Shown here in pieces: positions 1 through 37,660 of a DNA stretch of 40,889 nucleotides (position 1 is its first letter; each line of letters opens with the position of its first letter). Position numbers and translations under genes: made by a program. Source of the DNA: Rhodoferax sp. (GTDB lineage Bacteria > Pseudomonadota > Gammaproteobacteria > Burkholderiales > Burkholderiaceae_C); NCBI RefSeq assembly GCF_023701345.1, contig NZ_JAMPXE010000014.1, positions 1 through 40,889 of the forward strand. Direction: 5' to 3'. A model generated the notes under the pieces. The model saw only the letters and a list, made by a program, of their open reading frames with translations. It had not been told where the DNA came from and made no database searches.

Positions 1-1
1 G

Positions 2-718
2 CGGACTGTGCTGGGCATTGACGTAGAAAATGGTCAGCGCACATGGGAAGTTTATTTCCGCCAACTGGTCGAAGCGGCTGAGGCCGTTGGCATCCTCGTC
101 ATGCGCAGCGGCATCGTTGGCAACAACACGCACCGCCCTCTGGACGTGGCTGAGTTCCGGGGTTTTGCCGTCAGCCATCCGCTAGCCCCCCTCGTCTTCA
201 TCAACAGCGCCGACGCCCCGGCAGCACGGCTATTCACCCTGATACACGAACTGGCCCATATTTGGGTGGGCAGCAGCGGCATATCCAACGCCAGTCCTGG
301 CAACGCCCGGCGGGAAGAAGTTTTCTGCAATGCCGTGGCCGGTGAGTTTCTGGCACCCCATGACGTGTTCATCCCCCTGTGGACTGCAAGCACCGACAGC
401 CTGCCCGAGCGTGTGGCCGAACTGGCCCAGCGCTTTCACGTCAGCCGCCTTGTCATCATGCGGCGTGCATTTGATTTGGACCTGGTGGATCACGCCACTT
501 ACCTGCAGCACTACCAAGCCGAACTGGCCGCCTTTCGTAACAAGCCGGGCGGCGGTGGCAACTTTTACCGCAATGCCAACGCCAAAAATAGCAAGCGCTT
601 TGCCCGCGCAGTGCTGGCCGAGGCCTTGAGTGGCCGTTTGCTGCTGCGGGATGCCGGACGCCTTCTGGGTGTTCAACCAGGCAAGCTGAAAGTGCTCGCA
701 GGAGTGTTGGAACAGTGA
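2..718 (+). CDS. ImmA/IrrE family metallo-endopeptidase, 5'-truncated by window edge
   Basis: This is the C-terminal part of a zinc metallopeptidase of the ImmA/IrrE (COG2856) family. These enzymes usually cleave a repressor or act as the regulatory half of a stress or toxin-antitoxin module. The zinc motif HELAH lies at residues 80-84 counted from the GTG at base 8. A downstream acidic stretch around residues 103-113 (RREEVFCNAVAGEF) would supply the third ligand. The frame stays open to base 2, and family members often carry an N-terminal XRE-type HTH, so the true start is probably outside the window and the GTG at 8 is internal. The stop overlaps the next gene's GTG start by four bases (GTGA), which indicates translational coupling with the DUF4411 gene. 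The family call is firm. Its target is unknown. Confidence 0.88.
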   Translation, partial: RTVLGIDVENGQRTWEVYFRQLVEAAEAVGILVMRSGIVGNNTHRPLDVAEFRGFAVSHPLAPLVFINSADAPAARLFTLIHELAHIWVGSSGISNASPGNARREEVFCNAVAGEFLAPHDVFIPLWTASTDSLPERVAELAQRFHVSRLVIMRRAFDLDLVDHATYLQHYQAELAAFRNKPGGGGNFYRNANAKNSKRFARAVLAEALSGRLLLRDAGRLLGVQPGKLKVLAGVLEQ

Positions 719-1212
719 TCTACCTGCTGGACGCCAACACGCTGATTGAAGCCAAAAACCGCTACTACCAGATGAGCATTTGCCCCGGCTACTGGGACTG
801 GCTGCACAAAGCCAATCAAGCGGGTGAAGTGAACAGCATCCGTAGCGTGCGCGATGAACTGCAGCGTGGTAATGACGCGCTAGCCGAATGGGCCAAAGGC
901 CAAGCCCCCTTGTTCCTGGATGAATCCGACCAAGCCACGCAGACCGCTTTTGCCCAAGTGGCCCAGTACGTGGCCAGCAATGCTTTGTTAATGAAAACTG
1001 GCGCAATTGAAGAATTTCTGGGCGGCGCTGACCCGTGGTTGATCGCCAAGGCCATGACAATCAACGCCACGGTCGTGACGCATGAGCAACTGAACTTGGC
1101 TATCCGCCGTAAATTCCTGATTCCCAATGTTTGCCAGCACTTTGGCGTGCGGTTTGTGGATACGTTTGAGTTGCTGAATGCGCTGGAGGCGCGGTTTGTG
1201 CTGGAAGGATGA
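715..1212 (+). CDS. DUF4411 family PIN-like protein (putative toxin ribonuclease)
   Basis: A 165-residue protein that begins with the hydrophobic strand and aspartate typical of PIN-domain nucleases (MIYLLDANTLIEAK, Asp6). Further candidate catalytic acids are Glu48 in VRDEL and Asp106 in GGADPWLIA, followed by a THEQ segment. This arrangement matches the DUF4411 family, which is PIN-like and often lies next to COG2856/ImmA-type genes. The GTG start overlaps the stop of the peptidase gene, so the two are probably co-translated. By inference the pair is a toxin-antitoxin-like module: a PIN nuclease as effector and the HTH/peptidase protein as regulator. RNase activity and target are not shown by the sequence. 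Confidence 0.85.
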   Translation: MIYLLDANTLIEAKNRYYQMSICPGYWDWLHKANQAGEVNSIRSVRDELQRGNDALAEWAKGQAPLFLDESDQATQTAFAQVAQYVASNALLMKTGAIEEFLGGADPWLIAKAMTINATVVTHEQLNLAIRRKFLIPNVCQHFGVRFVDTFELLNALEARFVLEG

Positions 1213-1443
1213 GAACGGTCTAAACCGGTCACCCAATGTCTGGGAAGGCCGTGGTCCCCGGCGATCAAACTGTGTCGGCATCGGAAGGGCGCCGCTCGTC
1301 ACATCGCGTCACAGTGCGTTCCACGAAAATAGGGATTAAAGCCAAGTCGCCCGATTCTCTTGAAGGTGATTTTCCGCGATCCCCTGGCTGGCAATGCATA
1401 TATCCCGCTGCAGCTATGCCGGAGTACAGTGTTGATCTCAATA

Positions 1444-1450
1444 AAGGAGG
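1444..1450 (+). promoter_or_regulatory. Strong ribosome binding site deciding the gajA start
   Basis: AAGGAGG lies four bases upstream of the GTG at 1455. It fixes the start of gajA there rather than at an in-frame start 219 bases further upstream at 1236. The 242-base gap between the DUF4411 stop and this site otherwise shows no gene. It is richer in A and T than the preceding genes and may hold the promoter of the Gabija operon. Confidence 0.8.
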
Positions 1451-1454
1451 AGAC

Positions 1455-3164
1455 GTGAAAATAAGAAGAATCAATATCCAAAATTTCAGGGGCGTAAGGC
1501 GTCTGGAATGGAATCTTCCTGATCAGCAGATTTTCTGCCTGATTGGAAAAGGTGACTCTGCAAAAACGACAATCCTTGATGCCATCCGGTGTGTCTTCAA
1601 TCCTCAATGGAACCTCGCATTCAACGACTCGGATTTTCATCTTTGCAAAACCGACGATCCGATCAAGATTGAGATCGTCATCGGTGATCTGCCTGATGAA
1701 TTCTGTTCAGAGCAAAAATACGGTGCGCATCTGCGTGGTTTGGACAAGACCACATCCACGCTTCATGACGAGCCGGAGGATCACGATGAAATCGTGCTCA
1801 GCGCCCATCTCAGCGTGGCAAAGAACTTGGAACCGAAATGGAAGATCGTCACAGCCAGGAATCCTGATGGTGTGGACTTCAAGGCTGCAGACCGGGCGAA
1901 GGTCAATGTTGGCCTGATTGGATCCTACAGCGAGAAACAACTGACCTGGGCGGCCGGAACTGCCCTCGCCAAGATCACGGAATCGGAAAACCTAAGCGAG
2001 TCGCTCGTTGATGCCACACGCGCTGCACGAAACTCGCTCGATGGGCAGCGAGCCGCTGCCTTGAAGAACTTCGATGCGGCAGCGGCCAAGTCGGAGGTGG
2101 TAGCGAAGAAGCTCGGGATTCCGGTTGATGACTCTTTCAAGGTCAATCTCGATCTCGGCTCCATCAGTATCAGAATGGGCGGACTGACGTTGCACGATGG
2201 TGATATGCCGCTTCGGCAGCTTGGGCTTGGATCACGAAGGATGCTTCTCTGTGGCATCCAGAAAGAAAATCTCGAAGAGCGACATATCACTCTCTTCGAC
2301 GAACTGGAACTGGGACTCGAGCCCCACCGGATCGCGCGGCTGATCAAGCACATCAAAGATGACGCAACGGGGCAGTATTTCCTGACGACCCATTCTCCGT
2401 CCGTTTTGCGAGAGTTGACAGTTACCCAACTCCACGTCGTACACAAGTCAGCCGGTGACGTGGAGGTGGTGGCCACCGCAGGCAAGGACCTGGAAGGGCT
2501 CAACATTCAAGGTCACGTTCGTTCCAGTGCGGAAGCCTTCCTGTCCATGAAGGTGGTTGTCTGCGAAGGCGCAACAGAAGTGGGCTTCCTGCGTGGCCTG
2601 GACAATTATTGGGTAGCGTCCGGCCTGAATCCACTGTCCTACGTGGGCACTGTATTGCTGGATGCTCATGGCGCCAGCAAGGTCAAAAGTCTCGCGACTG
2701 GATTCAAAGCGCTGCACTACGACGTATGTGCAGTGGCAGATGGCGATGCGCCAGCGCAGTTCTCGCCGAAGGACGCGGAAGACTTGACCAAGCAGGCGAT
2801 CGAGGTGTTCATCTGGTCCGATCAATTGGCTCTCGAGCAGCGGGCGATGTTCGACCTGCCGTGGGCCAGTGTCCTTGCGAGCGTCAAGTTAGCACAGGAA
2901 CTGGGGCTGTCTGTCCATGACAACGTGCGCTCAAAACTAAACGTCGTGCTCGATCCGGACATCATGAAGTGGCCCGATTCACCCGAGCTGCGCAAAGCGG
3001 TCGGCGACGCAGCGAAAGCCAACTCTTCGCCGTGGTTCAAATCCATCTCAGATGCGCAAAGCTGGTTTGACACGATAGCGCCTGCCTTCGATGATCCGAA
3101 TTTCAAGCAGCGCGAGTTGGCCACCAAGTTGAATCGACTCCGCGCTTGGGTGGACCATGGATGA
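1455..3164 (+). CDS. gajA: Gabija-type anti-phage protein GajA (OLD-family ATPase with TOPRIM nuclease)
   Basis: A 569-residue OLD-family nuclease, close in length to characterised GajA (about 578 residues). GajA is a nicking DNA endonuclease held in check by nucleotides, and it acts with the GajB helicase against phage. The N-terminus (KIRRINIQNFRGVRRLEW) is typical of RecF/OLD ATPases. A Walker A-like loop (GKGDSAKTT, residues 31-39) has Ala where Gly is usual. A signature-like LRQLGLGSRRM lies near 253-263, Walker B ITLFDE at 278-283 and the switch TTHSP at 311-315. The C-terminal TOPRIM domain shows VVVCEGATE (Glu371) and ADGDAP (Asp429, Asp431). The gene overlaps gajB by eight bases. Gabija is the best reading. 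Another class 2 OLD/UvrD pair cannot be excluded without a search. GC content is lower than in the neighbouring chromosomal genes. Confidence 0.87.
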   Translation: MKIRRINIQNFRGVRRLEWNLPDQQIFCLIGKGDSAKTTILDAIRCVFNPQWNLAFNDSDFHLCKTDDPIKIEIVIGDLPDEFCSEQKYGAHLRGLDKTTSTLHDEPEDHDEIVLSAHLSVAKNLEPKWKIVTARNPDGVDFKAADRAKVNVGLIGSYSEKQLTWAAGTALAKITESENLSESLVDATRAARNSLDGQRAAALKNFDAAAAKSEVVAKKLGIPVDDSFKVNLDLGSISIRMGGLTLHDGDMPLRQLGLGSRRMLLCGIQKENLEERHITLFDELELGLEPHRIARLIKHIKDDATGQYFLTTHSPSVLRELTVTQLHVVHKSAGDVEVVATAGKDLEGLNIQGHVRSSAEAFLSMKVVVCEGATEVGFLRGLDNYWVASGLNPLSYVGTVLLDAHGASKVKSLATGFKALHYDVCAVADGDAPAQFSPKDAEDLTKQAIEVFIWSDQLALEQRAMFDLPWASVLASVKLAQELGLSVHDNVRSKLNVVLDPDIMKWPDSPELRKAVGDAAKANSSPWFKSISDAQSWFDTIAPAFDDPNFKQRELATKLNRLRAWVDHG

Positions 3165-4587
3165 GGATTTGCCCAAAAAGCTCGCAGAGTTTGACGGCAA
3201 AGGCTACGTAATTGCGCCTGCCGGATACGGTAAGACGCATCTCATCGCAATGGCCGTCAAGGCCTCGTCGCAACGCCAGTTGATCCTGACACACACCTAT
3301 GCTGGCGTCAACGCGATCAAAAAGAAGATGCAGGTACTGGCTGTTCCCGCGTCGCGCTACCAGATCGACACCATCGCAAGCTGGGCGTTGCGACTGTGCC
3401 TCTATTTCCCCAAGACCTCTAACTGGAAGAAGGAATACCCAAACAGCAAAGAATGGGGGAAGCTCTACGAGGCGTGCACTGCCATGCTCGACAGACCCTT
3501 TGCTAAACGCTTTGTCAAAAGTTCTTACTCGGGCATCTATGTAGATGAGTACCAGGACTGCTCGACTCAGCAGCACACGCTGGTCGAGGCGGTGACGAAA
3601 CTGTTGCCTTGTCGTCTCCTGGGTGATCCCATGCAGGCAATCTTCGACTTTGCAGACCAACCAGTTAATTGGGAACAGCATGTCTATCCCCACTATCAGT
3701 TGCTGGGTGAGCTGAAAACGCCGTGGCGATGGCGCTTGGCCGGTGCTACCGAACTTGGGGACTGGCTCGATGATGCGAGAAAACGGTTGCGTGCCGGGGA
3801 AAAAATTTCGCTCGCTACGCCACTGCCCAAGGGTGTTCGAAGGGTTGCTGTTGATCTGACGGACTTCACCAACCCAGGGCGTCTCAATTTTTTCTATGAG
3901 TTCCTGGACCATGAAGAGACGGTGATTGCCATTCACTCAGGCGATCCGAAATCCAAGAACAAGACCCACAAGCTTGCGCAGTCGCTCGGCGGCAAGTTTT
4001 CCAGTATCGAAGAGGTCGAAGGAAAGGATTTGTTTAGCTTCATCAAAAAACTCGAAGCTTCCAAGACGGTCAAGCAGAAGCTGTGCCTGGCGATCGAATT
4101 CGCCAAGAAATGCTGCAACGCGGTGGATGGAATCTTGAGTGCTGCCACCAAGCGCGGGGAGCATGCGAAGGCCACGAAGGTAACCAAGTATCCCAAAATA
4201 CTGGAGGTCGCTAATCACTACCTAGCAGACCCTTCGAGTCCGAATTTAGCGCGCTTGGTGACTGCTATCCAGACCAACCCGGAAACGTCAACGTATCGGC
4301 GCGACTTGGTGAACAGATTTATGAAAGTCCTGCGGACGCATGAGGAAAATGAAGGACTGAGTCTGTTGGAAAGCGCGCAGCGTTACCAGCGTGACTTCCG
4401 TCATTCCGGGCGGCCTATCCGTCACAACAAGCTCATCGGAACGACTTTGCTGGTCAAGGGTCTTGAGTATCACCACGCGATCATTCTGGAGGCGGAAGCC
4501 ATGTCGCCCAAGGAGCTGTATGTCGCGCTGACTCGTGGAGCCAAGACCATCACGATAGTGAGCCTAGAAAACACCATTCCAACCTGA
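3157..4587 (+). CDS. gajB: Gabija-type protein GajB (UvrD/PcrA-like superfamily 1 helicase)
   Basis: A 476-residue UvrD-like helicase that would partner GajA; known GajB is about 494 residues. Superfamily 1 motifs appear in order: Walker A APAGYGKT (20-27), Walker B VDEYQD (129-134), motif III GDPMQAIF (156-163), a motif IV-like PWRWR (189-193), motif V VKGLEY (433-438) and motif VI YVALTR (455-460). It is much shorter than full UvrD or Rep, so accessory subdomains are reduced, as in other GajB proteins. The ATG start at 3157 overlaps the gajA stop by eight bases, so translation is coupled and stoichiometry is probably controlled. Family knowledge suggests GajB senses DNA ends or ATP depletion and triggers GajA; nothing here tests that. 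Confidence 0.87.
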   Translation: MDEDLPKKLAEFDGKGYVIAPAGYGKTHLIAMAVKASSQRQLILTHTYAGVNAIKKKMQVLAVPASRYQIDTIASWALRLCLYFPKTSNWKKEYPNSKEWGKLYEACTAMLDRPFAKRFVKSSYSGIYVDEYQDCSTQQHTLVEAVTKLLPCRLLGDPMQAIFDFADQPVNWEQHVYPHYQLLGELKTPWRWRLAGATELGDWLDDARKRLRAGEKISLATPLPKGVRRVAVDLTDFTNPGRLNFFYEFLDHEETVIAIHSGDPKSKNKTHKLAQSLGGKFSSIEEVEGKDLFSFIKKLEASKTVKQKLCLAIEFAKKCCNAVDGILSAATKRGEHAKATKVTKYPKILEVANHYLADPSSPNLARLVTAIQTNPETSTYRRDLVNRFMKVLRTHEENEGLSLLESAQRYQRDFRHSGRPIRHNKLIGTTLLVKGLEYHHAIILEAEAMSPKELYVALTRGAKTITIVSLENTIPT

Positions 4588-4781
4588 CTCATGAAGCTCT
4601 TGCGTTTTTTGCCGAGAGACGCACTTCAAGCCAATGATGGCCACCAGAGGTCGATAATCCGGCACACTTCAGGCATGACTGAAAACATCCGACTCGAAGT
4701 TCCCGACGTCTTGGTGCAACACTCGGTACTGCTGAATATCGGGTTTTTATACAGCCTCGTTAGCCCTCAAGAAAGGTTGCC
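4588..4781. other. Intergenic gap between gajB and the 297-residue gene
   Basis: These 194 bases hold no convincing gene. An open frame from an ATG at 4591 codes for 66 residues, but it looks unlike any family I know and runs into the next start. A purine-rich AAGAAAGG at about 4769-4776 probably serves as the ribosome binding site for the ATG at 4782. The gap is long enough for a separate promoter, so the downstream gene need not be part of the Gabija operon. Confidence 0.5.
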
Positions 4782-5675
4782 ATGCGCGTAGTCAATATCG
4801 CTCAGTTTGAGAACTCGGTTGTCATCCACTTCGATACCGATGACACGCGCATCAATGCGTACACCTTAGCATCAACGCTAGTCGCTCTCGCCGACGCAGC
4901 GAAAGCCGCAAATACAACGTTGAATGTCGGCTGCGAAATAGAGATCGTCGTCGAGGCGCTGGGGCCCGGTAGTTTCCGCGCGCTCATCCGCGCACTGTAT
5001 TCAAGCTCTCGTAACCTCTTCGCGAATCAGATCGTTATGGGTCTTGTGCTTGGGGTCCTGGGTAACTACATTTATGAACGTACGCTGGCAGTCGATGACA
5101 AGGTCACGGTTGAAGTCAAGACTGACGAAGTAATAATCCAAAAGGGCAATGATCGAGTCGTAGTCCCGAGAAACGTTTACGACGCGACAAGACGGGTTGA
5201 GAAGAATCCACAATTCGTCAAGGCTATGACTCGCACGTTCGAGGCCGTGGCGGCTGACGAGAAGGTCAAATCTTTTGGACTCGTCGAGAAAATGGATTCG
5301 CCTGCTCCAGCGATCCCAATACCCCGTTCCACGCTCATCTCCCTTGCCACACAAACGCCAGAAGACCCAGATTGTCGAGTCATCACTGAGCAAGCCGAGC
5401 TCCAGATCGTGAAGGCAATTCTCAAGAAGTCCAACCGTCGGTGGGAGTTCGTTTGGAGGGGAATCACGATATCAGCGCCGGTAGTGCATGATCGTTTCTA
5501 TGTGGATTTCTTTGCCCACGAAATCACCATTGCGCCGGGCGACACGCTTGAAGTCACACTTGCCATTAAGCAGGCTAAAGACCCTGACACAGGCATCTAC
5601 ACGAACGTTGGGTACGAGGTGGTTGAGGTTCATGGTCATGTTCCCCGCGTCAGGCAAATGCCACTCACCGGATGA
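4782..5675 (+). CDS. Unrecognised 297-residue protein with one hydrophobic segment, in a defence island
   Basis: I do not recognise this family. The N-terminal 80 residues look like an alpha/beta domain (for example VVIHFDTDD, and IEIVVEALGPGSFRALIRAL at about 52-71). A single hydrophobic, probably membrane-spanning stretch follows at about residues 83-100 (IVMGLVLGVLGNYIY). A charged linker with VTVEVKTDEVIIQ comes next, then a C-terminal half rich in predicted beta strands (about 190-297). The start at 4782 is supported by an upstream purine-rich site. It lies between a Gabija pair and a Type III restriction system and has similarly lowered GC. That makes it a candidate defence or abortive-infection effector by association only. 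It could equally be unrelated cargo. Confidence 0.75.
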   Translation: MRVVNIAQFENSVVIHFDTDDTRINAYTLASTLVALADAAKAANTTLNVGCEIEIVVEALGPGSFRALIRALYSSSRNLFANQIVMGLVLGVLGNYIYERTLAVDDKVTVEVKTDEVIIQKGNDRVVVPRNVYDATRRVEKNPQFVKAMTRTFEAVAADEKVKSFGLVEKMDSPAPAIPIPRSTLISLATQTPEDPDCRVITEQAELQIVKAILKKSNRRWEFVWRGITISAPVVHDRFYVDFFAHEITIAPGDTLEVTLAIKQAKDPDTGIYTNVGYEVVEVHGHVPRVRQMPLTG

Positions 5676-5778
5676 CCGCTAATGTGCAGCGGGTATTCGG
5701 CCACACGTTAACTATTTGTAATTGGCTGTTTCAGCCATTGAGTAACCTCCAAGAGCATACTTACTGACCGTCAGTCAA

Positions 5779-6201
5779 TCAGTCAGTGTCCCGAGCGTCT
5801 GGCCCATCAGTGCTTGCATGGACCTTGGCGAAAGCCAAAATCACCTCGCGGATGATCTTGCGTTGAGAGGCTGGCAGCTTGAGGAAAGCATCGAAAGTTT
5901 CCCGCTCCAGGTAGTCCACGCCTTCGTCCCAGCGCTGCTTGTGTTGCTGGATGGAGTTGCGTACTACCTCGCCAAAGCGCAGTACCTGTGGCTCCACCTT
6001 CAGCCATTCGGCAAGAACCTGCAATTTTTCTTGTGTTGGAATAGAACGACTGTTAAGCCAACCCCAGGCAGCTTGATTGCTGATGGAGCGCCCGTACCAA
6101 CGTAAATTGAACTCGTGCTCTATCACGGACGGACTGGCTAAATACCCGGCCTTGATCATGGCATCGCGTAGCCGATTGCTGAATTCGATCTTTTCATTCA
6201 T
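5779..6201 (-). CDS. HTH (XRE/lambda-repressor-like) regulator divergent from mod
   Basis: A 140-residue protein whose first 75 residues fit a lambda-repressor-like helix-turn-helix: RLRDAMIKAGY, then SISNQAAWGWLNSRSIPTQEKLQVLAEWLKV, where the recognition helix should lie in the SNQAAWGWLN stretch. The C-terminal part is charged and helical (residues 80-130) and may dimerise. The gene is divergent from mod, separated by about 100 A+T-rich bases that carry two matching palindromes. It therefore probably represses or times expression of the modification gene and of itself, in the way of restriction-modification controller proteins. Family membership is reasonably sure. The regulatory role is inferred from position. 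Confidence 0.75.
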   Translation of the reverse strand: MNEKIEFSNRLRDAMIKAGYLASPSVIEHEFNLRWYGRSISNQAAWGWLNSRSIPTQEKLQVLAEWLKVEPQVLRFGEVVRNSIQQHKQRWDEGVDYLERETFDAFLKLPASQRKIIREVILAFAKVHASTDGPDARDTD

Positions 6202-6228
6202 CCGCCCGAAGCTATTGAATGCTTGAGA

Positions 6229-6301
6229 AATAAATCAATTTTCAGTTGATAATCATTTAAACAATTACTTGATTTTGTTATCAACTGTCTGTTGATTTAT
6301 T
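6229..6301. promoter_or_regulatory. Paired operator-like palindromes between the HTH regulator and mod
   Basis: Two 17-bp sites share the pattern ATCAA-N7-TTGAT, at 6234-6250 and 6280-6296, with centres 46 bp apart. The outer flanks also mirror each other: AATAAATCAA at 6229-6238 with TTGATTTATT at 6292-6301, and CAGTTGATAA at 6243-6252 with TTATCAACTG at 6278-6287. The whole region is thus a large nested inverted repeat. It fills most of the divergent intergenic gap and ends two bases before the mod ATG. These are the expected positions for repressor or controller binding at both divergent promoters. Binding by the adjacent HTH protein is inferred. Confidence 0.7.
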
Positions 6302-6303
6302 CA

Positions 6304-8418
6304 ATGCCCAAATCTCTGCTCGAACAACTCCCCGAAATCGTGGCCAATGGCCGCAAAGAAGCCGAAAAAATCCTGGAAGGCATTGAGAGCCGCCACCGCG
6401 TGTCGCTGCAAACACGTGAGGTGGTGCTACCCGCCAAGGACTCTGCGGCGCAGGACTGGGTGACGGCGCAAAACCGGCAGGCACAACAGGCCAGCCACGA
6501 CGACGCCTGGACCAACCGCCTGATTTACGGCGACAACTTGCTGGCCATGGCGGCGCTGCTGGCGGGCGATGACAACACGCCCAGCTTGCGCGGCAAGGTG
6601 GACCTGATCTACATCGACCCCCCGTTTGACAGCAAGGCGGACTACCGCACCAAGGTCAACTTACCCGGCGTGGAGCTGGAGCAAAAACCCACCGTCATTG
6701 AGCAGTTCGCCTATTCCGACACCTGGAGCGACGGCACTGCCTCGTATCTCGCCATGATCACGCCCAGGCTGATTTTGATGCGCGAGTTGCTGGCGGACAC
6801 TGGCTCGATTTACGTGCATTTGGATTGGCATGTGGGGCATTACGTAAAAGTGGCGATGGACGAGGTGTTTGGAAAAGAAAATTTTCTAAACGAAATCGTT
6901 TGGCAAAGAACTGGAGCACACAACGACGCGGGAAAGTTCGGGGTTGTCCACGATGTGTTAATGCTTTATCGAAAAGGTAGCACGCACATTTTTGAGCCCG
7001 TATATGTGCCCCTTTCCGACGAACATCAAAGTACACGTTTCAACCAAACAGATGTGCTGAACGGAAAACGCTTCTTCGCTGGACCCATTACCGCCCCCGG
7101 CTCCGGACCACCCAGGGCTTTTCGTGGCGTAGAAATAACACCTCCTCAAGGTCGACACTGGAGCTATTCACAAGAAAACATCGACGTGCTGGAAGCTGAC
7201 AACAAAATCTATTACTCCAGCACCGGCACTCCGTATTTGAAGCAATACATGGACGACTATCTTGAACAGGGTCGTCGCGTGCAATCCGTCTGGGTTGATT
7301 TGCTTCCTGCAAAAACTGGCGCTGAAATTCTCGACTACGCCACCCAAAAACCGGAAAAATTACTCGACCGAATCATCCGTGCCTCATGCTCCGAAGGAGG
7401 CCTCGTCGCAGATTTCAACGGCGGTTCAGGCACCACTGCGGCCGTCGCCGAAAAACTAGGCCGCCGCTGGATCACCACCGACCTCGGCAAGCCCGCCTGC
7501 ATGATCATGCGCAAGCGGCTGATTGACCAGGACGCCAAACCCTTTCTCTACCAGGCCATCGGCGACTATCAGGTGGAGGCGGCCAAGGCCATGTTGGGGC
7601 GGGACTTCCGTATTGGTGACCTGTCGCAAATCGTGCTTTCGCTCTACGGCGCGCTGCCATTGCCACCCGACGTGAATCCGCAGCGCAACCTGGGGCAGAT
7701 TGCGGGCATGGCTTTTGGCGCTGGCAAGAGCAGCAAAACGCTGGTGCTGGCCGATTCGCCCAACAAGCTCACTGGCGCAGCCACCCTTAAGAAGGCGATT
7801 GCTCAGCGCGATAACCTGATGGGCGGCTGGGACCGGGTGGTGGTGCTGGGCTGGAACTTTGAGCCCTCGATTGGCGAAACCATCACCGCGCTGAACGACA
7901 GTCGGCTTGAGGTACTGGTGATCCCTCCTGACCTGATGGACCGGCTGAAGAAAAAAGGCGGCATCGACAAGCTGCGCGGGCAAGTGAGGTTCTCTTCGCT
8001 GCAATACCTGACGATTCACCCGATTGAACGCAGCCCTTCGACAGGCTCAGGGCGAACGGAATCATCGGGCGAAAGGCAGGAAACGTTGACCGTCAAGCTC
8101 AAGAACTACGTGCTGCTGTCACCCGAAGCCATCAACCTCGACGACGCCAACCGCGTCAAACTGCAGGCCGTCATCAACCAGGAGCCGCTGGCGCTGATCG
8201 AATACTGGGCGGTGGACCCGGACTACGACGGCCGGGTGTTCCGCTCGGTCTGGCAAGACTACCGGGGCAACACCGCCAATGATGAAGATGCGCTGCGCGT
8301 GGTGACGCAGGCCGTGGTGACGGTCGCGCACAAGGTCGGCCCGCGCAAGGTGTGCGTTCGCGTGGTTGATGTGTTTGGGTTTGAGGCCGAAGTGGTTGTG
8401 ATGGTGGGGGTGGTGTGA
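6304..8418 (+). CDS. mod: Type III-like DNA adenine methyltransferase (Mod subunit)
   Basis: A 704-residue site-specific DNA methyltransferase of the beta class. Motif IV, DPPF (residues 105-108, in [10 protein letters not shown]), precedes the AdoMet-binding motif FNGGSGTT (371-378); this order is usual for Type III Mod proteins. DPPF in place of DPPY is a common variant in N6-adenine enzymes. The target-recognition region should lie between the two motifs. It coincides with a fall from about 70% GC to about 40% between 6860 and 7400. Residues about 575-592 are a Ser/Gly/Arg-rich insert encoded by a dispersed repeat. The ATG at 6304 is preferred over an upstream TTG at 6292, which lies inside the palindrome; neither has a clear ribosome binding site. 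Res is encoded downstream, beyond higBA. Confidence 0.88.
8034..8059. repeat. Dispersed short repeat inserted in frame in mod
   Basis: The sequence begins CCCTTCGACAGGCTCAGG and continues with GCGAACGG. This is a widespread short repeat of proteobacterial genomes, well known because its reverse strand reads as FALSLSKG in one frame. Here it adds a short low-complexity segment to Mod ([14 protein letters not shown]) without breaking the frame. Recognition is from memory of the motif. Copy number in this genome cannot be judged from one copy. Confidence 0.7.
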
Positions 8419-8437
8419 GGTGTTGACCGGAGTGGCT

Positions 8438-8740
8438 TCAAGCCGCAACCAGTTCCCGCACTGCCTGCAGACTGTCTTTAAGTGTCTCCTGCGCCACTTT
8501 CAAATCATAAGCAGTCTGCAAGTTCAGCCAGTACTGCGGCGACTGCCCCAGCGCACGACCCAGGCGCAACGCCAGTTCGGCAGTGACAGGGCGGTCACCT
8601 CTGAGCAGGTGCGAAACGCGCATGGGCGATACGCCGATGACCTCGGCAAAAGCAGTTTGAGTCAGTCCCATATCTTCCAGTGTTTCGCGCAGGAATTCGC
8701 CGGGATGGATGGCGGGCATGCCGTTGACAGGGGTTTTCAT
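8438..8740 (-). CDS. higA: HigA family addiction-module antitoxin
   Basis: A 100-residue XRE-type antitoxin. It has the HigA-typical start IHPGEFLRETLEDMGLTQTAFAEVIGVS, the HTH at about 26-48 (TQTAFAEVIGVSPMRVSHLLRG), and the conserved WLNLQTAYDL around residues 75-84. It would bind and neutralise the HigB toxin encoded 12 bases upstream and repress the shared promoter. The gene is convergent with mod, with only 19 bases between their stops. Toxin-first order is normal for higBA. Confidence 0.93.
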   Translation of the reverse strand: MKTPVNGMPAIHPGEFLRETLEDMGLTQTAFAEVIGVSPMRVSHLLRGDRPVTAELALRLGRALGQSPQYWLNLQTAYDLKVAQETLKDSLQAVRELVAA

Positions 8741-8752
8741 GGTGCTATTTCC

Positions 8753-9034
8753 TCAGTGGTAATCAATGATTTCAACGTCTGTGGCGTTGCCGCGCTCAAA
8801 CCGGAAACACACACGCCAACGGTCATTGATGCGGATGCTCCATTTGCCTGCCAGATCACCCGACAAGGACTCCAGTCGGTTGGATGGCGGCTGGCGCATG
8901 TCTTCAAGCTGCGTTGCGGCGTCAAGCTGTGTCAGTCGCATGACGGCGCGGCGCAAGATGTCAGGAGGCAGACGACGCGACTTGCCCGTGACAAAGAGTC
9001 GCTCGGTTTCCGGGTTGGCAAAGTTTTCAATCAC
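8753..9034 (-). CDS. higB: HigB/RelE-type mRNA interferase toxin
   Basis: A 93-residue toxin of the HigB branch of the RelE superfamily, which cleaves mRNA on the ribosome. Family features are the start IENFANPETERLF, the RLESLSGDLAGKWSIRINDRWRVCFRF core (residues about 54-80) and the C-terminal DVEIIDYH. The start was placed at the GTG at 9034 because the upstream residues in this frame lie inside a promoter and palindrome and fall outside the family length. The -10 box is so close that the mRNA may have no leader. It forms an operon with higA and is divergent from res. Confidence 0.92.
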   Translation of the reverse strand: MIENFANPETERLFVTGKSRRLPPDILRRAVMRLTQLDAATQLEDMRQPPSNRLESLSGDLAGKWSIRINDRWRVCFRFERGNATDVEIIDYH

Positions 9035-9040
9035 GACCAA

Positions 9041-9069
9041 ATTATAAACAATTTGTTTATCAGCCAACA
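9041..9069 (-). promoter_or_regulatory. higBA promoter with embedded 17-bp operator
   Basis: On the minus strand a TTGTTG -35 and a TATAAT -10 (9046-9041) are separated by 18 bases. A perfect palindrome with 8-bp arms and one central base, ATAAACAATTTGTTTAT, covers 9044-9060. It fills most of the spacer and overlaps the -10 box. Autorepression by HigA or the HigBA complex is the expected use. The predicted transcription start falls at or within a base or two of the higB GTG. The site also lies 27 bases upstream of the res start and could affect that gene. Confidence 0.72.
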
Positions 9070-9086
9070 AATTCAGGGGCAACAAT

Positions 9087-12050
9087 ATGCTTGAAAAAGA
9101 CAACCAACTCGCACTCTCCATGGGCCTGACCGCCAAGACCAATCAATTGTGTTTGGGCCTGGAGTCAGGTGCCGCCGACATTCTGGAACTGGTGACACCC
9201 ACCACGGCCGAGCTGTTGCTGTGGTGGTTTGGCGACGACATGGTGCTGGCGCGCAGCGGCCTGAACTTTCACACGGGCCAAAAGCAGGCGATTTTGAATG
9301 CTATCGTGGCGCATGAGGTGTTGGGCAAAGATCATGAAAACTGGACGCTTCTTGACCTCTACAAAAAGGTTGCCCCGGATGCGTTGTTGGCTGGCACGCG
9401 CCTGAATGAGGTGGCACAGGCCAAACATGGGCACCCAAAATACTGCTTCAAGATGGCCACCGGCACCGGCAAGACCTGGGTGTTGCAGGCGCTGATGATC
9501 TGGCAACTGCTCAACAAAACGGCGGCGCTGGCTGAGGGGATGGACGATGCACGCTTTACCCGCCAGTTCATGGTGGTGGCGCCGGGCTTGATCGTTTACG
9601 AGCGCCTGCTGGATGCGTTTTGCGGCAAGCAGATCGAGAGCGAAAGCGGCAATGGCGCGCGCGACTTTGCCACGTCGGACATTGCCAAATTTGTCGATCT
9701 TTTCATCCCCGACGTGCATCGGGATGTGGTGTTTGCCTTTGTGCGCGGCAACGTCTGCGGTAAGACCGAGATCGGCCTGAAAGCCACCGGCAACGGCATG
9801 ATTGCCATCACCAACTGGCATCTTTTGAATGAGGGTGACGTCGCCGAAGACGTTGAAGAAATCGAAGCCCTGGGCGCACCACTGGACCCGCAGCAAATCA
9901 TCGAAGCCGTTTTGCCGCTGACGCCCGGACGCGCCACCGGCAACAGCCTGGACGTGCTGGACCGCCGTTATGCACGCGGCAATGTGCTGGAGTTTTTGGC
10001 GGATTTGCCTGAGTTGATGGTATTCAACGATGAGGCCCACCACATCCATGAGTTCAAGCGTGAGGGTGAAAGCACCGAGGTGGAGTGGCAAAAAAGCCTG
10101 TCAAGAATTGCCGAAACCAAGGGGCGGCGCTTTGTGCAGGTTGACTTTTCCGCCACGCCCTACAACGACGTGGGTGCTGGCAGAAACAAGCGCAAACTGT
10201 ACTTTCCGCACATCATCACGGACTTTGACCTGAAAAGCGCGATGCGTGCCGGCCTGGTGAAGTCGTTGGTGCTGGACCGCCGCAAGGAAATCGGCGCGCT
10301 CCCTTTGGAGTTCAAGGCCGAGCGTGATGAGCAGGGCAACCCGGTCTTGAGCGAAGGCCAGCGCGTGATGCTGCGCGCCGGATTGAAAAAGCTGCGCAAG
10401 CTGGAAACTGACTTTGCCGGGCTTGACCCTACGCGTCACCCGAAGATGCTGGTGGTGTGCGAAGACACCACGGTGTCGCCGCTGGTGGCGGGGTTCCTGC
10501 AAGATCAGGAGGGGCTCAATGCTGACGAGGTGATGACCATTGACTCCGGCAAAAAGGCCGAGCTGGGCGAGAAGGATTGGGTGCCGGTGCGCCAGCGTCT
10601 GTTCAGTATTGATCACCATGCCACGCCCCGCGTGATCGTGAGCGTGCTGATGCTGCGCGAGGGCTTTGACGTGAACAACATTTGCGTGATCGTGCCCTTG
10701 CGCAGTTCGCAAGCGCAGATTCTGCTGGAACAAACCATTGGTCGGGGCCTGCGCCTGATGTGGCGTGACGACGAATACACCGACCTGAAACGCGAAAACC
10801 GCGAACGCATCAACGCGGGACAGGAGCCCGGCAGCTTGCTGGATGTGTTGTCGATTGTTGAGCACCCGGCCTTTCAGTCGTTTTATGACGAATTGATTGC
10901 CGAAGGTCTGGCGGGCACCACGGGCGACGACATGGATGACACCAGTGCGACCGGTGACGTGATCGCCGCCGAGTTGCGCGAAGGTTTTGAGGCGTTTGAT
11001 TTTGGCATTCCGTTCATCTTGCAAGAGGCCGATGAAGTGCGTGACCACCATGCGCTGGATGTGTGCTCCTTGCCTGCATTTATCGCCATGAGCGTTGCGC
11101 AATTGACTGGCTTGCTTGGCAAGGGCGACACCTTTATTTCACAAGACCTGCAAAGCGCAACGCTGTTCGGCGACTACCGTGTGGACGGTGCCGTGATGAA
11201 CGTGGGTGGCTATAACGAGTATTTGAGCCGCCTGACCCGTCGCATCAGTCAGGCGCTCAGTGAACCGATGCCAAAGGGCAACAAAATAGCGACACACCTG
11301 GCCAAACCGTATCTGCAAGTCAATACCGCAGAACTCACCGGTTGGCTGGATGACTACATCTGGACGCAACTGTTTGACCAAGCCTTTAACCCGCTGGAGG
11401 GTGAAAACTGGCGCGTGTTGTTATTGCAGCCCGTGGTGGATCACATCACCAAAGTGTTCGCTGTCGCGCTGCTTGAAAACGAGCAAAAACACAGCACCGG
11501 GCAAACCGAGGTCCATTTGCGGCATTTGTCAGAAGTACCCAAATTGATGATGCGCGAATGCCATTCTGTGGCGGTGTCCAAATGCATTTACACCCGCTTG
11601 GCCTGGCCCGCCCGCAACGGCGGGCTGGAGAAAGCATTGATCTATTGGGCGCAAGCAGATACGCAAGTGGAGGCGTTCTGCAAGCTCAGTGAAAACCGCC
11701 ACACCTTTACGCGCTTGCGCTATGTGAAGGATGACGGCCTGCCTGCGTTTTACTCGCCTGACTTTCTGGTGCGAACGGCTGACGCGGTCTATCTGGTGGA
11801 AACCAAGGCACAAGCGCAGGCCATTCACCCCAATGTGCAGCGCAAGCTCAAAGCCGCGCTGGCCTGGTGTGATCGTATCAATGGTTTGCCCGTGGCGCAA
11901 CGCGGCAGCGCGCCATGGCATTACGTGCTGCTGGCCGAAAACGTGGTGCATGAATGGCAGGGCAAAGGCGCACGCCTGGCTGAATTGCTGCATTACGCCC
12001 GACTGCGGCCGCTGGCAGAGGCCTCGCTGCAATCAAGCCTGGCGTTCTAG
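9087..12050 (+). CDS. res: Type III-like restriction enzyme, Res subunit (helicase plus nuclease)
   Basis: A 987-residue superfamily 2 helicase-nuclease. Walker A is MATGTGKT at 123-130. The DEAH-type Walker B (VFNDEAHHIHE) lies near 311-321, a motif III-like DFSAT near residue 353, and a motif VI-like LEQTIGRGLRLMW near 548. The C-terminal PD-(D/E)XK-like nuclease is seen as YSPDFLVRTADAVYLVETKA at about 887-906. Res would translocate on DNA after Mod recognises unmethylated sites, and cleave. The ATG at 9087 has a good ribosome site (CAGGGG, 9074-9079). Mod and Res are separated by the inverted higBA pair, so res probably needs its own promoter rather than read-through from mod. Confidence 0.9.
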   Translation: MLEKDNQLALSMGLTAKTNQLCLGLESGAADILELVTPTTAELLLWWFGDDMVLARSGLNFHTGQKQAILNAIVAHEVLGKDHENWTLLDLYKKVAPDALLAGTRLNEVAQAKHGHPKYCFKMATGTGKTWVLQALMIWQLLNKTAALAEGMDDARFTRQFMVVAPGLIVYERLLDAFCGKQIESESGNGARDFATSDIAKFVDLFIPDVHRDVVFAFVRGNVCGKTEIGLKATGNGMIAITNWHLLNEGDVAEDVEEIEALGAPLDPQQIIEAVLPLTPGRATGNSLDVLDRRYARGNVLEFLADLPELMVFNDEAHHIHEFKREGESTEVEWQKSLSRIAETKGRRFVQVDFSATPYNDVGAGRNKRKLYFPHIITDFDLKSAMRAGLVKSLVLDRRKEIGALPLEFKAERDEQGNPVLSEGQRVMLRAGLKKLRKLETDFAGLDPTRHPKMLVVCEDTTVSPLVAGFLQDQEGLNADEVMTIDSGKKAELGEKDWVPVRQRLFSIDHHATPRVIVSVLMLREGFDVNNICVIVPLRSSQAQILLEQTIGRGLRLMWRDDEYTDLKRENRERINAGQEPGSLLDVLSIVEHPAFQSFYDELIAEGLAGTTGDDMDDTSATGDVIAAELREGFEAFDFGIPFILQEADEVRDHHALDVCSLPAFIAMSVAQLTGLLGKGDTFISQDLQSATLFGDYRVDGAVMNVGGYNEYLSRLTRRISQALSEPMPKGNKIATHLAKPYLQVNTAELTGWLDDYIWTQLFDQAFNPLEGENWRVLLLQPVVDHITKVFAVALLENEQKHSTGQTEVHLRHLSEVPKLMMRECHSVAVSKCIYTRLAWPARNGGLEKALIYWAQADTQVEAFCKLSENRHTFTRLRYVKDDGLPAFYSPDFLVRTADAVYLVETKAQAQAIHPNVQRKLKAALAWCDRINGLPVAQRGSAPWHYVLLAENVVHEWQGKGARLAELLHYARLRPLAEASLQSSLAF

Positions 12051-12110
12051 CGGAGTGCCATCCAGGGCAGAAAACTTCAGATCGTCGGGCGAATGAAAAA
12101 TGGCGTGTGT

Positions 12111-12758
12111 TTACCGCGCCCGTTCCGCCAAAAACATCTCGATGCGGCGGTTTCTGGCGCGGCCGGCTTCGGAGTAGTTGTCGGCGATGGGCTCGTAGGA
12201 GCCGCGGCCGTCAATCTGGATGCGTTGTCCGCTCACGCCGCGGGACACCAGGTAGTTGCGTGCGCTGGCAGCACGGTTGACCGACAACGGGTTGTTGATG
12301 GCGTCCGAGCCGGTGCTGTCGGTGTGGCCCACGATGCGGATCTCGGTGTTGGGCTGGTTGGCCAGGCCTTGCGCAAACTGGTCCAGGATGGGGCGCAGAT
12401 TGGGCTTGATGACCGCGCTGTTGACGTCAAATGAAATGTCGCTTGGGATGTTGAGCTTGAGCTGGTTGTCGGCGGTCTGCGTCACATCGACGCCGGTACC
12501 GGCGGTGGCTCGCTCCATGGCGGCCTTTTTCTGCGCCATCTGGTTGGACCAGATATAGCCGCCCAGCGCCCCGACACCGGCGCCAATGGCTGCCGACTTG
12601 GAGCTGTCGCCAATGGCGGCGCCCGCCAGTGCGCCAACACCAGCGCCAATGGCGGAACTGCGTTGGGCGTCCGACATGTTGGCGCAGCCACCGAGCAGAA
12701 CAAGGGTGGCGCTCAAGGCGGCAAGCACCGGGCGATTGCGTGTGATCAGATTTTTCAT
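12111..12758 (-). CDS. OmpA-family lipoprotein with glycine-zipper segment (YiaD-like)
   Basis: A 215-residue outer-membrane lipoprotein. The signal peptide ends in the lipobox LLGGC with lipidated Cys25. Residues about 35-70 are a glycine-zipper repeat (AIGAGVGALAGAAIG, then a second AIGAGVGALGG). The C-terminal domain (about 105-212) is OmpA-like: VGHTDSTGSDAINNPLSVNRA, then GRGSYEPIADN and GRARNRRIEMFL, the peptidoglycan-binding pattern. It tethers the outer membrane to peptidoglycan or supports envelope integrity. The 141 bases upstream (12759-12899) hold no gene, only a short hairpin at 12863-12878. Confidence 0.93.
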   Translation of the reverse strand: MKNLITRNRPVLAALSATLVLLGGCANMSDAQRSSAIGAGVGALAGAAIGDSSKSAAIGAGVGALGGYIWSNQMAQKKAAMERATAGTGVDVTQTADNQLKLNIPSDISFDVNSAVIKPNLRPILDQFAQGLANQPNTEIRIVGHTDSTGSDAINNPLSVNRAASARNYLVSRGVSGQRIQIDGRGSYEPIADNYSEAGRARNRRIEMFLAERAR

Positions 12759-12899
12759 GGTTGTTCCTTCAGGGTTGTGGGTAAATGTAATTTATACCAG
12801 CCAGGGCCCTGTGTGTTGTGTGCGTCAGCACACATGTGCATCAAAATGTAACGACGAATTGAGAATCCGCATGGATTCCAGGGTCTGTGCCGGGGGCCT

Positions 12900-13967
12900 T
12901 CAGGCCGTTGCGGTGGTTGTTTGGTCCACTTTGTCTGCCTCCGAGGTAAACGCATCGGCATAAAACTCGTCTTCCGGCAAACCGGCTGCCAGGTAGTCGG
13001 CACGCGCCGAGTCCACCACAATCGGCGCGCCGCAGGCATACACCTGGTAGCCGCTCAAGTCCGGCAGGTCTTGCAGCACGGCGCGGTGCACAAAGCCGGT
13101 GCGCCCGTGCCAGTTGTCCTCGGGCAGGGCCGCTGATACCACCGGCACATAACGCAGTTCGGGCATCTCGGCCAATTTGGTTTTGACCCAGTCATCCATG
13201 TACAGGTCGGCCGGACGGCGGCCACCCCAGTACAGCGTGACCGGGCGCTTGATGCCTTTGAACTGGAGGTGCTCGATGATCGCCTTGACGGGGGCAAAGC
13301 CGGTGCCCGAAGCCAGCAGCAAGATGGGTTTGGCGCTGTCTTCGCGCAGGTAAAAGCTGCCAAACGGGCCTTCAATGCGCAAGATGTCGCGCTCTTTCAT
13401 GGTGGCAAAGACATGGTCGGTAAATTTGCCGCCCGGCATGTGGCGTATGTGCAGTTCCAGCCCCTGGCTGATCAGGTGTGGTGCGCTGGCCATGGAATAG
13501 CTTCGGCGCGCGCCGCCCTGCAGCAAAAACTCGATGTACTGGCCGGCGTGGTAGGCAAAGACCTCGTTGGCCGGCATTTGCAGCAGCAGGCGGAACACGT
13601 CGTGTGATTTTTTCTCCAGCAGCTTGACGCGCACGGGCATTTTCTTGATGGCAAAAGCGCCTTCCAGCGTGACCTGGCGCGATTCCAGCACCACGTCGCT
13701 CATGGGGCTGGCGCAGCAGGTCAGCACGAAACCCTGGGCCTCTTCGGCTTCGCTGAGTGCCTTGCTCTGGTGCGCGCCGTGGCTGACGCTGCCACTGAGT
13801 TTTTTGCATTTGCACGAGCCGCAAGCGCCATCCTTGCAGCCATAGGGCAGGTTGATGCCCTGCGCAATACCGGCTGCCAGAATGGTTTCACCGGCTGCCA
13901 CGTCAAATTCGCGGCCGCTGGGTTCGATGGTGATGTGAAAAGCACTTGGGCTCGCGCTGCCGGTCAT
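12900..13967 (-). CDS. 2Fe-2S ferredoxin-type flavoreductase (CDP-6-deoxy-delta-3,4-glucoseen reductase-like)
   Basis: A 355-residue one-component reductase. The N-terminal plant-type ferredoxin domain has Cys44, Cys49 and Cys52 (CKDGACGSCKC) and Cys84 or 85. An FAD-binding domain follows with RSYSMAS, and then an NAD(P)-binding domain with LLASGTGFAPVKA. It passes electrons from NAD(P)H through flavin to the cluster and on to a partner. The architecture is shared by AscD/RfbI sugar reductases and oxygenase reductases. Homologues in Comamonadaceae are commonly annotated as glucoseen reductase, but no deoxysugar genes lie nearby, so the substrate is unknown. It is divergent from the SDR-like gene across 43 bases. 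Confidence 0.85.
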   Translation of the reverse strand: MTGSASPSAFHITIEPSGREFDVAAGETILAAGIAQGINLPYGCKDGACGSCKCKKLSGSVSHGAHQSKALSEAEEAQGFVLTCCASPMSDVVLESRQVTLEGAFAIKKMPVRVKLLEKKSHDVFRLLLQMPANEVFAYHAGQYIEFLLQGGARRSYSMASAPHLISQGLELHIRHMPGGKFTDHVFATMKERDILRIEGPFGSFYLREDSAKPILLLASGTGFAPVKAIIEHLQFKGIKRPVTLYWGGRRPADLYMDDWVKTKLAEMPELRYVPVVSAALPEDNWHGRTGFVHRAVLQDLPDLSGYQVYACGAPIVVDSARADYLAAGLPEDEFYADAFTSEADKVDQTTTATA

Positions 13968-14010
13968 ATTCTGGTTATCCTCAAAGCTTCAAATTTAAAA
14001 GGAGTCGATT

Positions 14011-37060: not shown

Positions 37061-37653
37061 GCGGAGATGGTTTTGGGTAGGTGGTGCAGCCACCAGCCGG
37101 CGGGCTCCGGTGTGGCTGAGGCGGGGGTGTCGGGTTGGAAGCGCCAGTCGCCCGGCGGCGCTGCGTCGAACCAGAGCAGGCTGAAGGCGAGCAGAGGACG
37201 CTCATCGGCGCCGTGACACCAGCGGCCGGCCACGCGTGCGAACAGGCCGGCCTGGGCACCGGCGGGCGGGCGCCAGGCTTTGCCGGTCGACACGGCGGCC
37301 ATGCCGCCCGCGCCGCCGAGAACCATGAGGTTGAGGTCGCGCACCGGGCCGCCGATCAGGCGGCAGCCGGGCGCGGCGGTGCCGTCGAAGGCCAGCGGCG
37401 CATCGCCGGGGTACTGCGTCAGCGAGCGGTCGGCGAAGTCCAGCGCCACGCCGTCGCCCGAGAGCAGCGTGAACCAGCGCCGCACGCCGGGGAAGGCCGA
37501 GAACGGGCCGTCGGCGGCGATGTCGGCCACGCTGATGCGCAGCCGCCAGTCCAGCGGGCTGGGCCAGGTCAGCAGCTCGCGCGTGACGCCGCCGCCATTG
37601 CGCCACGGCGTGGCCGGGGTGTTGTCGAGGGTGATGACGCGCATGGTGGTCAT
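37057..37653 (-). CDS. hutD: HutD family cupin protein
   Basis: A 198-residue cupin of the HutD family. It has the usual start ([23 protein letters not shown]) and the [34 protein letters not shown] core. HutD occurs in many hut operons and is thought to tune histidine use rather than catalyse a step. Two starts are possible (37653 and 37644). It starts seven bases after the hutH stop and overlaps hutI. Confidence 0.92.
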
Positions 37654-37660
37654 GGCGCGT

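Follow-up and report, generated by a model that had tools for sequence, protein, structure and literature searches.

We analysed a 40,889-nucleotide stretch of Rhodoferax sp. DNA (contig NZ_JAMPXE010000014.1; hereafter the window), in which a HigBA toxin-antitoxin pair lies inside a type III-like restriction-modification (R-M) system, exactly between the stop codon of mod and the start codon of res and on the opposite strand (Table 1). A first-pass annotation of the sequence had described positions 1 to 12050 as a compact defence island of five separate units: a PIN/ImmA module, Gabija, an unknown membrane protein, a type III R-M system, and HigBA. We read the open reading frames (ORFs) of positions 1 to 16000 and scanned ten proteins against Pfam, PADLOC, and NCBIfam, which placed every named module where it had been reported. 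The count of five separate units did not hold, because HigBA is nested between mod and res, and a 140-aa protein, here called X, goes with the R-M system. Both the ORF of X (5779-6201, minus strand) and the position of HigBA between mod and res had been passed over.

Table 1. Features of the window discussed in the text, with the matches that identify them.
Feature	Position	Strand	Basis
ImmA/IrrE-like metallopeptidase (Peptidase_M78), C-terminal 238 aa	2..718	+	E 2.5e-16; cut by contig start
DUF4411 protein, partner of ImmA-like gene	715..1212	+	PF14367, E 4.7e-50
GajA (OLD-family ATPase/TOPRIM nuclease)	1455..3164	+	PADLOC PDLC04168, 653 bits
GajB (UvrD-like helicase)	3157..4587	+	PADLOC PDLC04173, 536 bits; 8 bp overlap with gajA
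PDC-S42/LAPAL-family protein, one hydrophobic stretch (by eye)	4782..5675	+	PDC-S42, E 1.8e-19; NF053583, 175 bits (cut-off 60)
X, 140-aa helix-turn-helix protein, divergent from mod	5779..6201	-	conserved beside mod; AlphaFold and Foldseek
X-mod divergent intergenic region, putative promoters/operators	6202..6291	.	
mod, beta-class DNA methyltransferase, type III-like	6292..8418	+	N6_N4_Mtase, E 3e-35; MTase_III, 247 bits
mod-res slot, 668 bp, holds antisense HigBA here	8419..9086	.	
higA antitoxin	8438..8740	-	TIGR02607, 94 bits (cut-off 47.7); closest solved relatives 6f8s_A / 6f8h
higB toxin (RelE-like)	8753..9034	-	PF05015, 62 bits (cut-off 27); closest solved relative 6f8s_B
palindrome TAAACAATTTGTTTA	9045..9059	.	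10 bp from higB, 27 bp from res; sole copy in window
res, helicase-nuclease subunit (GTGKT, DEAH, C-terminal PD-ExK)	9087..12050	+	REase_III, 96 bits
right junction of island, next to ompA	12051..12110	.	congener comparison

Together, X, mod, and res appear to form a three-gene type III-like R-M system. A beta-class mod, which probably starts at 6304 (MPKSLLEQ), lies upstream of res, with the insert between them in the window, and Res combines superfamily 2 helicase motifs with a PD-ExK nuclease whose residues PD 891-892, E905, and K907 do not vary across an alignment of 14 homologues (52-92% identity to the first). The profile of these homologues matched a single solved sequence at E ≤ 0.001, that of EcoP15I Res (4zcf_C, E 2.7e-4). 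This match and that to REase_III are weak, and Res stayed below the cut-off of all five NCBIfam models that it matched. By analogy with their families, Mod would methylate DNA and Res would cleave unmodified DNA; type III enzymes cleave as a Mod2-Res complex acting on two sites, and their methylation is asymmetric. The order of mod and then res is shared with EcoP15I-type systems, but the relationship is distant, and the extra gene X and the slot are points of difference. A mod-res homologue on the Sphingomonas insulae plasmid NZ_CP048419.1 (L081:10933-18919) is followed in one run by an AAA ATPase, a restriction endonuclease, a PD-(D/E)XK nuclease, and a UvrD-helicase.

X had no Pfam, PADLOC, or NCBIfam match at E ≤ 0.001 and a weak match to a PHROG repressor (E 9.6e-4), and it is conserved with the R-M system in many beta- and gammaproteobacterial loci, lying divergently and within 400 bp of mod in 53 loci. 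Searches with tblastn revealed no X in alphaproteobacterial, actinobacterial, or patescibacterial loci, nor in the proteobacterial loci L126, L129, L132, and L134 despite ample flanking sequence. The AlphaFold model is all-helical (pLDDT, the model's own confidence score, 84.5; 32-row alignment), and its best matches in the Protein Data Bank (PDB) are mostly lambda-repressor-like DNA-binding domains, including those of the R-M controllers C.AhdI (TMt 0.81) and C.Csp231I, with no Foldseek match at E <1e-3. A lambda-repressor-like helix-turn-helix protein is thus encoded inside an R-M locus, and we propose that X is a controller of the R-M genes; palindromic C-boxes in its promoter would support this. 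Inverted repeats in the region between X and mod exceeded those of shuffled sequences on average over the 53 loci, reaching p<0.05 in 11 of them. A third gene 5' of mod occurs in some type III systems, where it encodes a helicase-like ATPase (PMC8259958).

How often the junction of mod and res is interrupted was assessed in 116 Res loci, comprising 80 from a contig scan (the best 80 of 536), 20 from a family search (20 of 25 genomes fetched), and 16 from the window, its relatives, and plasmids. Removal of 10 duplicates left 106, and exclusion of seven without a visible mod (L095, L105, L131, L133, L146, L171, and L172) left 99 distinct loci in which res is accompanied by all or part of mod; the Res fragments L078-L080 and the later loci of G513 and G514 (L224 and L225) also stand outside this set. 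The gap between the two genes was shorter than 60 bp in 61 of the 99, and in 53 loci it was exactly -4, a 4-nt overlap that always reads ATGA, GTGA, or TTGA and through which res is presumably coupled translationally to mod. An insert of at least 60 bp was present in the other 38, a proportion that is not a population frequency because the loci were picked by Res similarity. In the family-search set alone, mod was visible in 18 of 20 loci and the slot was occupied in 9 of those 18. Strains with an occupied slot include Rhodoferax bucti GSA243-2 (L145) and Polaromonas sp. CG9_12 (L097), and Limnohabitans sp. 15K (L094) is one with an empty slot. Of the 38 occupied loci, 32 have a mod match with a coverage of 75% or more, and the last residues of Mod and the first residues of Res were alike in empty and occupied loci (exceptions L100 and L077), which places the inserts at the junction itself.

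The 38 slots hold HigBA in 19 cases, a phosphoribosyltransferase-like gene paired with a 69-aa gene in eight (one of them a remnant), a ParE/ParD-like pair matching PF15781/PF11903 in four, and other contents in seven. The last group includes a DUF5397 gene beside a VapD/Cas2-like gene, which we take to be VapD (L134), sense dynamin-like genes (L100, and L073, which also carries remnants of HigA and of the phosphoribosyltransferase-like gene), HigA beside a remnant of the 69-aa gene (L147), a sense ORF of no recognised kind (L148), and two inserts with no recognisable gene (L112 and L152). In both L147 and L073, HigA stands without a HigB match. Every toxin-antitoxin-like module was antisense to mod and res (34 of 34 loci), with its first gene on the res side; these are 25 loci with HigA, HigBA, or ParE/ParD, L134, and the eight with the phosphoribosyltransferase-like pair, a putative module of this kind. 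Some slots are layered, with remnants of the phosphoribosyltransferase-like pair on the mod side under HigBA (L103), HigA (L147 and L073), or ParE/ParD (L174).

The phosphoribosyltransferase-like gene and its overlapping 69-aa partner (L093:9174-9957, L041, L069, L072, L074, L169, L176, and L180) behave like an unrecognised two-gene module, with one weak Pfam match below cut-off (PF00156) and none in PADLOC; short sense ORFs lie beside the pair in L069 and L169. Dynamin-like GTPase genes were seen in or near the slot, in sense orientation, in L073 (PF00350), L100, and L172. A second, different HigBA lies left of X and runs in the same direction as X in L069, L070, L072, L073, and L043 (G008), directly downstream of X in L069, L070, and L073, so that the left side of X is a second place for toxin-antitoxin genes beside the X-mod-res system.

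In the window, the pair has the layout of a type II HigBA system, with the gene of a RelE-like toxin first and that of a helix-turn-helix antitoxin second; higB probably starts with GTG at 9034. HigB and HigA match the two chains of a single complex, PDB 6f8s (E 8.5e-26 and E 1.1e-19), which we take to be GraTA of Pseudomonas putida, a free-standing pair, whereas that of the window is nested in an R-M operon. A palindrome of the type TAAACN5GTTTA stands between higB and res in all 19 HigBA slots, with a one-base variant in L117, and the exact form occurs once per locus in 18 of the 19 loci (6-41 kb). The copy in the window is its only match there at up to two mismatches (chance mean 0.24). Its distance from res is 24-30 bp in 14 of the 19 loci and exactly 27 bp in seven, the mean identity among the 27-nt spacers of these seven being 43% (26-70%). 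The same palindrome precedes higB in slot-free members of the clade (L191, L192, and L196) and in L190, and it is absent from the more distant HigBAs L197-L199 and L201-L215. Because it recurs before higB in slot-free copies of the same clade, the palindrome is most likely the HigA operator. In the four ParD-like slot modules, the first gene, on the res side, is preceded at its 5' end by another shared palindromic element, ACAATTGT.

Our phylogenetic comparisons revealed that the slot has changed hands often. The tree of res was built from those 99 of the 106 loci whose Res has at least 900 aa, a different 99 from the mod-visible set, by a quick search with support from the SH-aLRT (Shimodaira-Hasegawa-like approximate likelihood ratio test) only. 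The HigBA label requires 14 changes on it, of which starred branches force at least 11; all states combined require 32-34, and occupied versus empty 21, counts that do not separate gains from losses. The Res of the window is sister to that of G042:C51, whose slot is empty with the 4-nt overlap (SH-aLRT 100). In a tree of 48 HigB+HigA pairs, the 21 slot pairs and 27 other pairs need six changes, three of them forced, and a single ancient insertion of HigBA, with all slot pairs in one clade, was rejected by the approximately unbiased (AU) test (p-AU 3.5e-6). The window and G513 are 95-99% identical in the seven 100-bp bins of 8401-9100 and 78-96% identical in the inner flanking bins, as expected if the cassette alone had been exchanged. 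A HigB search independent of Res (148 genomes) found a clade member in ten genomes: in the slot in four (G000, G058, G513, and G514), next to X with a mod remnant in G021, and elsewhere in five. No mod or res match was found in the 12-17 kb around HigB in G007, G028, and G049, and the context viewed in G038 and G081 extends only ~1.5 kb to each side.

HigBA is also present where R-M genes are incomplete. The mod match of G513 begins only at residue 347, and G514 has no match to mod but an acyltransferase separating X from the slot; HigBA persists in both. In L079 (G008:C87, 9575-10659), the C-terminal parts of X and Res abut beside HigBA, a deletion scar indicating loss of the R-M core and retention of the toxin-antitoxin pair.

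The region that houses this system was compared with the corresponding sites of relatives, as the first-pass annotation had suggested. Of 59 other genomes searched, six congeners have the ompA-reductase flank to its right at nearly full length (82-85% identity). G003 has an empty site with the flanks joined, the end of puuD (presumably urate hydroxylase-like) lying ~0.1 kb from ompA. Left of ompA, other congeners carry puuD and then a gene we take to be DUF1810-like (G042 contig C275, L066), puuD with a PIN gene and HigBA (G053), puuD with HigBA and a res scar (G048), puuD with two other genes (G040), or HigBA fragments with no puuD within the 17 kb viewed (G021), and contig C51 of G042 (L067) reads, from left to right, puuD end, PIN gene, X, mod, res, and part of ompA. 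A gene order common to all close relatives, which would have spoken against an island, was not seen in the congeners with the ompA flank; several defence modules thus sit where relatives have either no insert or other material, and the island itself stood up to the comparison. The metagenome-assembled genome G042 contains two versions of the puuD-ompA site, C51 with and C275 without the R-M system, as if strains differed within one population or the bin were mixed.

The window is the entire contig C152 of a 3.42 Mb assembly of 224 contigs, so its left edge is an assembly edge. In the same assembly, puuD lies at 324-1544 of contig C112, ~320 bp from the contig end, and the stretch between holds a second HigA-like gene. 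In L147 and L150, 84-95 bp separate a similar HigA-like gene from the start of a gene of 344-379 aa, the later part of which matches the ImmA of the window. If the strain of the window is built like these loci, C112 and the window would be ~0.5 kb apart and the island would measure ~12.9 kb. Its left border, claimed earlier to lie outside the window, is probably next to puuD on C112. The GC content is 0.558 in 1-12050 and 0.617 in 12111-35000, and GC at third codon positions (GC3) is 0.59-0.72 in ten island genes compared with 0.76-0.81 in three flanking genes. ARAGORN found no tRNA in the window, and the search for integrases and border repeats was that of the family scans of ten island proteins.

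The gene content, the nesting, the recurrence with unrelated modules, the constant orientation, the frequent gain or exchange, and the palindrome are directly seen, and they make it likely that the mod/res junction is a recurrent cassette slot for complete toxin-antitoxin modules. That positions 1 to 12050 are most of a ~12.9 kb defence island between puuD and the ompA-like gene is likely from the sites of congeners, which are empty or hold other genes, from the puuD copy near the end of contig C112, and from the lower GC and GC3. Such a swappable slot suggests that two kinds of defence may be wired together.

Several results weigh against this picture. The left end of the island is unassembled, and C112 shares no 15-mer with the first 2 kb of the window. 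The mod match falls below 75% in six of the 38 occupied loci, of which L041 and L113 lie near contig ends, L071, L077 (mod 3' end altered), and L117 are partial, and L100 has only the first residues of mod, followed by the dynamin-like gene, so that there the insert replaces mod. The res start codons were picked mechanically, and the palindrome stands 4, 4, 12, 18, or 146 bp from res in the remaining five of the 19 loci (4 bp in L182/L183, 146 bp in L117). Two slot-free clade members whose HigB matches lack the N-terminus (L195 and L200) have no palindrome in the stretch searched. Scanning for sigma-70 promoters gave no promoter-like site in the interval from higB to res and, around it, only as many as chance would give; by eye there is a good -10 element for higB and none for res. 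A gain of Shine-Dalgarno sites before res in occupied loci was rejected, the difference running in the wrong direction (18 of 38 versus 51 of 61 empty loci). In the X-mod region of the window, X operators found no backing, no inverted repeat exceeding shuffled sequences (p 0.95). Across 198 other same-cassette pairs, cassette identity was on average 0.057 below that of res, with a largest excess of 0.04; a general identity peak across the cassette was therefore rejected, only the window and G513 showing one. By class, a Shine-Dalgarno-like tetramer precedes res in 13 of 19 HigBA, one of seven phosphoribosyltransferase-like, and one of four ParE/ParD slots. No terminator was found in the slot, and folding of the mod-slot edge gave nothing notable (z -1.15).

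How the slot might work can be sketched from the families involved. HigB would cut mRNA unless held by HigA, which would also repress higBA; the toxin could arrest the cell once the antitoxin falls, for example during phage takeover, and the pair may stabilise the R-M locus against loss. The promoter end of the module faces res, and the slot takes the place of the mod/res overlap, so that the expression of res would have to pass or start at the HigA operator and HigA occupancy probably also tunes res. This might occur by promoter overlap or as a roadblock; a second likely link is antisense transcription across higBA and mod-res. In the furthest-reaching version, the junction would be a docking slot at which each module swaps translational coupling for its own autoregulated operator, placing the restriction enzyme under the control of the antitoxin; antitoxin depleted by phage would release toxin and restriction together, and modules would be swapped as phages counter-adapt. 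We regard this version as speculative and unlikely.

The modules may instead be passengers. The mod/res junction would then simply tolerate insertion, a sense-oriented module bringing a terminator or promoter of its own would disturb res, and addiction would be the only functional link. The palindrome is intrinsic to this HigBA clade and also occurs in its slot-free copies, so that its place near res may be a by-product; no promoter of res was recognised, the families found as cargo are unrelated to one another, with a sense dynamin-like gene among them, and modules decay and are overlaid (L103, L147, L174, and L073). Mere tolerance accounts less readily for recurrence at one exact junction across many lineages, or for the narrow 24-30 bp range of most operator-res distances despite differing spacers. 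The X-mod junction stayed within 400 bp in all 53 loci, a weak control given that the 400-bp limit was part of the selection. Passenger status is a serious prospect, although we hold it to be somewhat short of probable.

A more specific form of coupling would make HigA a direct controller of res: bound 27 bp upstream, it would repress initiation or block read-through from mod, and loss of the antitoxin would both free HigB and raise Res. The presence of the palindrome in every HigBA slot at a near-constant distance and the retention of HigA without a HigB match in L147 and L073 are consistent with this, as is C.Kpn2I, a published roadblock in an R-M system (PMC6237814). The operator-res distances of L117 and L182/L183 fit it poorly, and because no res promoter is recognised at the operator, we consider direct control by HigA unlikely.

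Antisense wiring is decidedly improbable in our view. Read-through from mod to res would yield RNA antisense to the higBA mRNA and silence the toxin while the R-M system is active, and higBA transcripts would enter the 3' end of mod. The invariant antisense orientation of the toxin-antitoxin-like modules is in line with such wiring, and antisense RNAs regulate the R-M genes of EcoRI and Eco29kI (PMC3874152), but type II antitoxins do not need it. An ordinary island of five independent systems lying together by chance is very improbable, since HigBA lies where a 4-nt overlap is usual and does so in 19 of 99 loci, which contradicts independence for the HigBA/R-M pair and leaves it standing for Gabija, ImmA-DUF4411, and PDC-S42.

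Insertion of toxin-antitoxin genes into R-M loci has a precedent in type I systems. In the RptR-DarTG2 island of enteropathogenic Escherichia coli, a toxin-antitoxin pair lies between hsdS and hsdR at a site that its authors call a potential recombination hotspot (PMC12255303). That island shares with ours a toxin-antitoxin pair inside an R-M locus and a small helical DNA-binding regulator; it differs in being type I rather than type III-like and in holding one toxin-antitoxin family plus another gene pair. RptR has 79 aa and is the first ORF of its island, whereas X has 140 aa, is lambda-repressor-like, and is divergent, and rotating antisense modules, as seen here, are not described in the portions of that paper covered (PMC12255303). 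The anticodon nucleases PrrC and RloC also arrest growth, and their genes are linked to R-M loci or inserted in them; of 72 RloC genes, eight map to a type I or III locus (PMC2610378). These are single nuclease genes and not two-gene toxin-antitoxin modules. Among the titles and abstract openings of the matches listed (one listing giving the best 15 of 414, from mostly non-subscription literature), none concerned a toxin-antitoxin pair between mod and res of a type III system. Toxin-antitoxin genes inside type I R-M loci are thus already known, and the type III-like mod/res slot appears to be new, as far as this weak evidence of absence goes.

Defence modules are commonly treated as neighbouring units. 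In the loci described here, one kind is nested within another at one and the same junction; the nested modules belong to at least four unrelated toxin-antitoxin-like forms and have the same orientation at each locus seen. The empty and occupied slots of closely related R-M systems provide natural replicates for asking whether antitoxins control restriction. Looking in the slot is also a way to find new toxin-antitoxin pairs, the phosphoribosyltransferase-like gene and its 69-aa partner being a candidate.

The remaining modules of the island appear to be stand-alone neighbours. The gene at the left edge retains the M78 domain, and its Xre part was lost at the contig end; the full-length relative at L150:6183-7322 has both parts (379 aa, with an N-terminal HTH_3, the Xre + M78 architecture), so ~141 aa are missing from the window. 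An Xre-M78 protein beside its effector would be expected of an ImmA/IrrE-type toxin-antitoxin or protease-regulated pair, which the two genes here may form. The partner belongs to DUF4411, which we take to be PIN-like, and a DUF4411 gene also lies near the R-M locus in G058 (L071), with a remnant in G013 (L072). The family named in the table for the reported "unknown membrane protein" modifies that description: the protein is present, but its family, PDC-S42/NF053583, has a name, although it is uncharacterised, and we regard it as a candidate for defence. PDC-S42 is rare, occurring in seven of 250 family genomes including its own at E ≤ 0.001, four of them above the cut-off. A phage origin, suggested by its NCBIfam name and a PHROG match, was rejected, as tblastn found no relative in phages or plasmids; viral contigs likewise gave none, in a search with a single query that detects close relatives only. 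No paper was found under the names PDC-S42 and BPTD_3080.

Gabija is recognisable from adjoining gajA and gajB genes, both with near full-length PADLOC matches, as in known Gabija systems. The gajA ORF opens at 1236 (1236-3164), and the GajA profile begins at a GTG near 1455, the likely start. The P-loop of GajA (1455-1700) reads GKGDSAKTT, with A in place of the G that we presume to be usual before K. On the far side of ompA, the GC content rises to 0.71-0.73 in 35001-39000, over what we take to be histidine-degradation-like genes, from 0.617 in 12111-35000.

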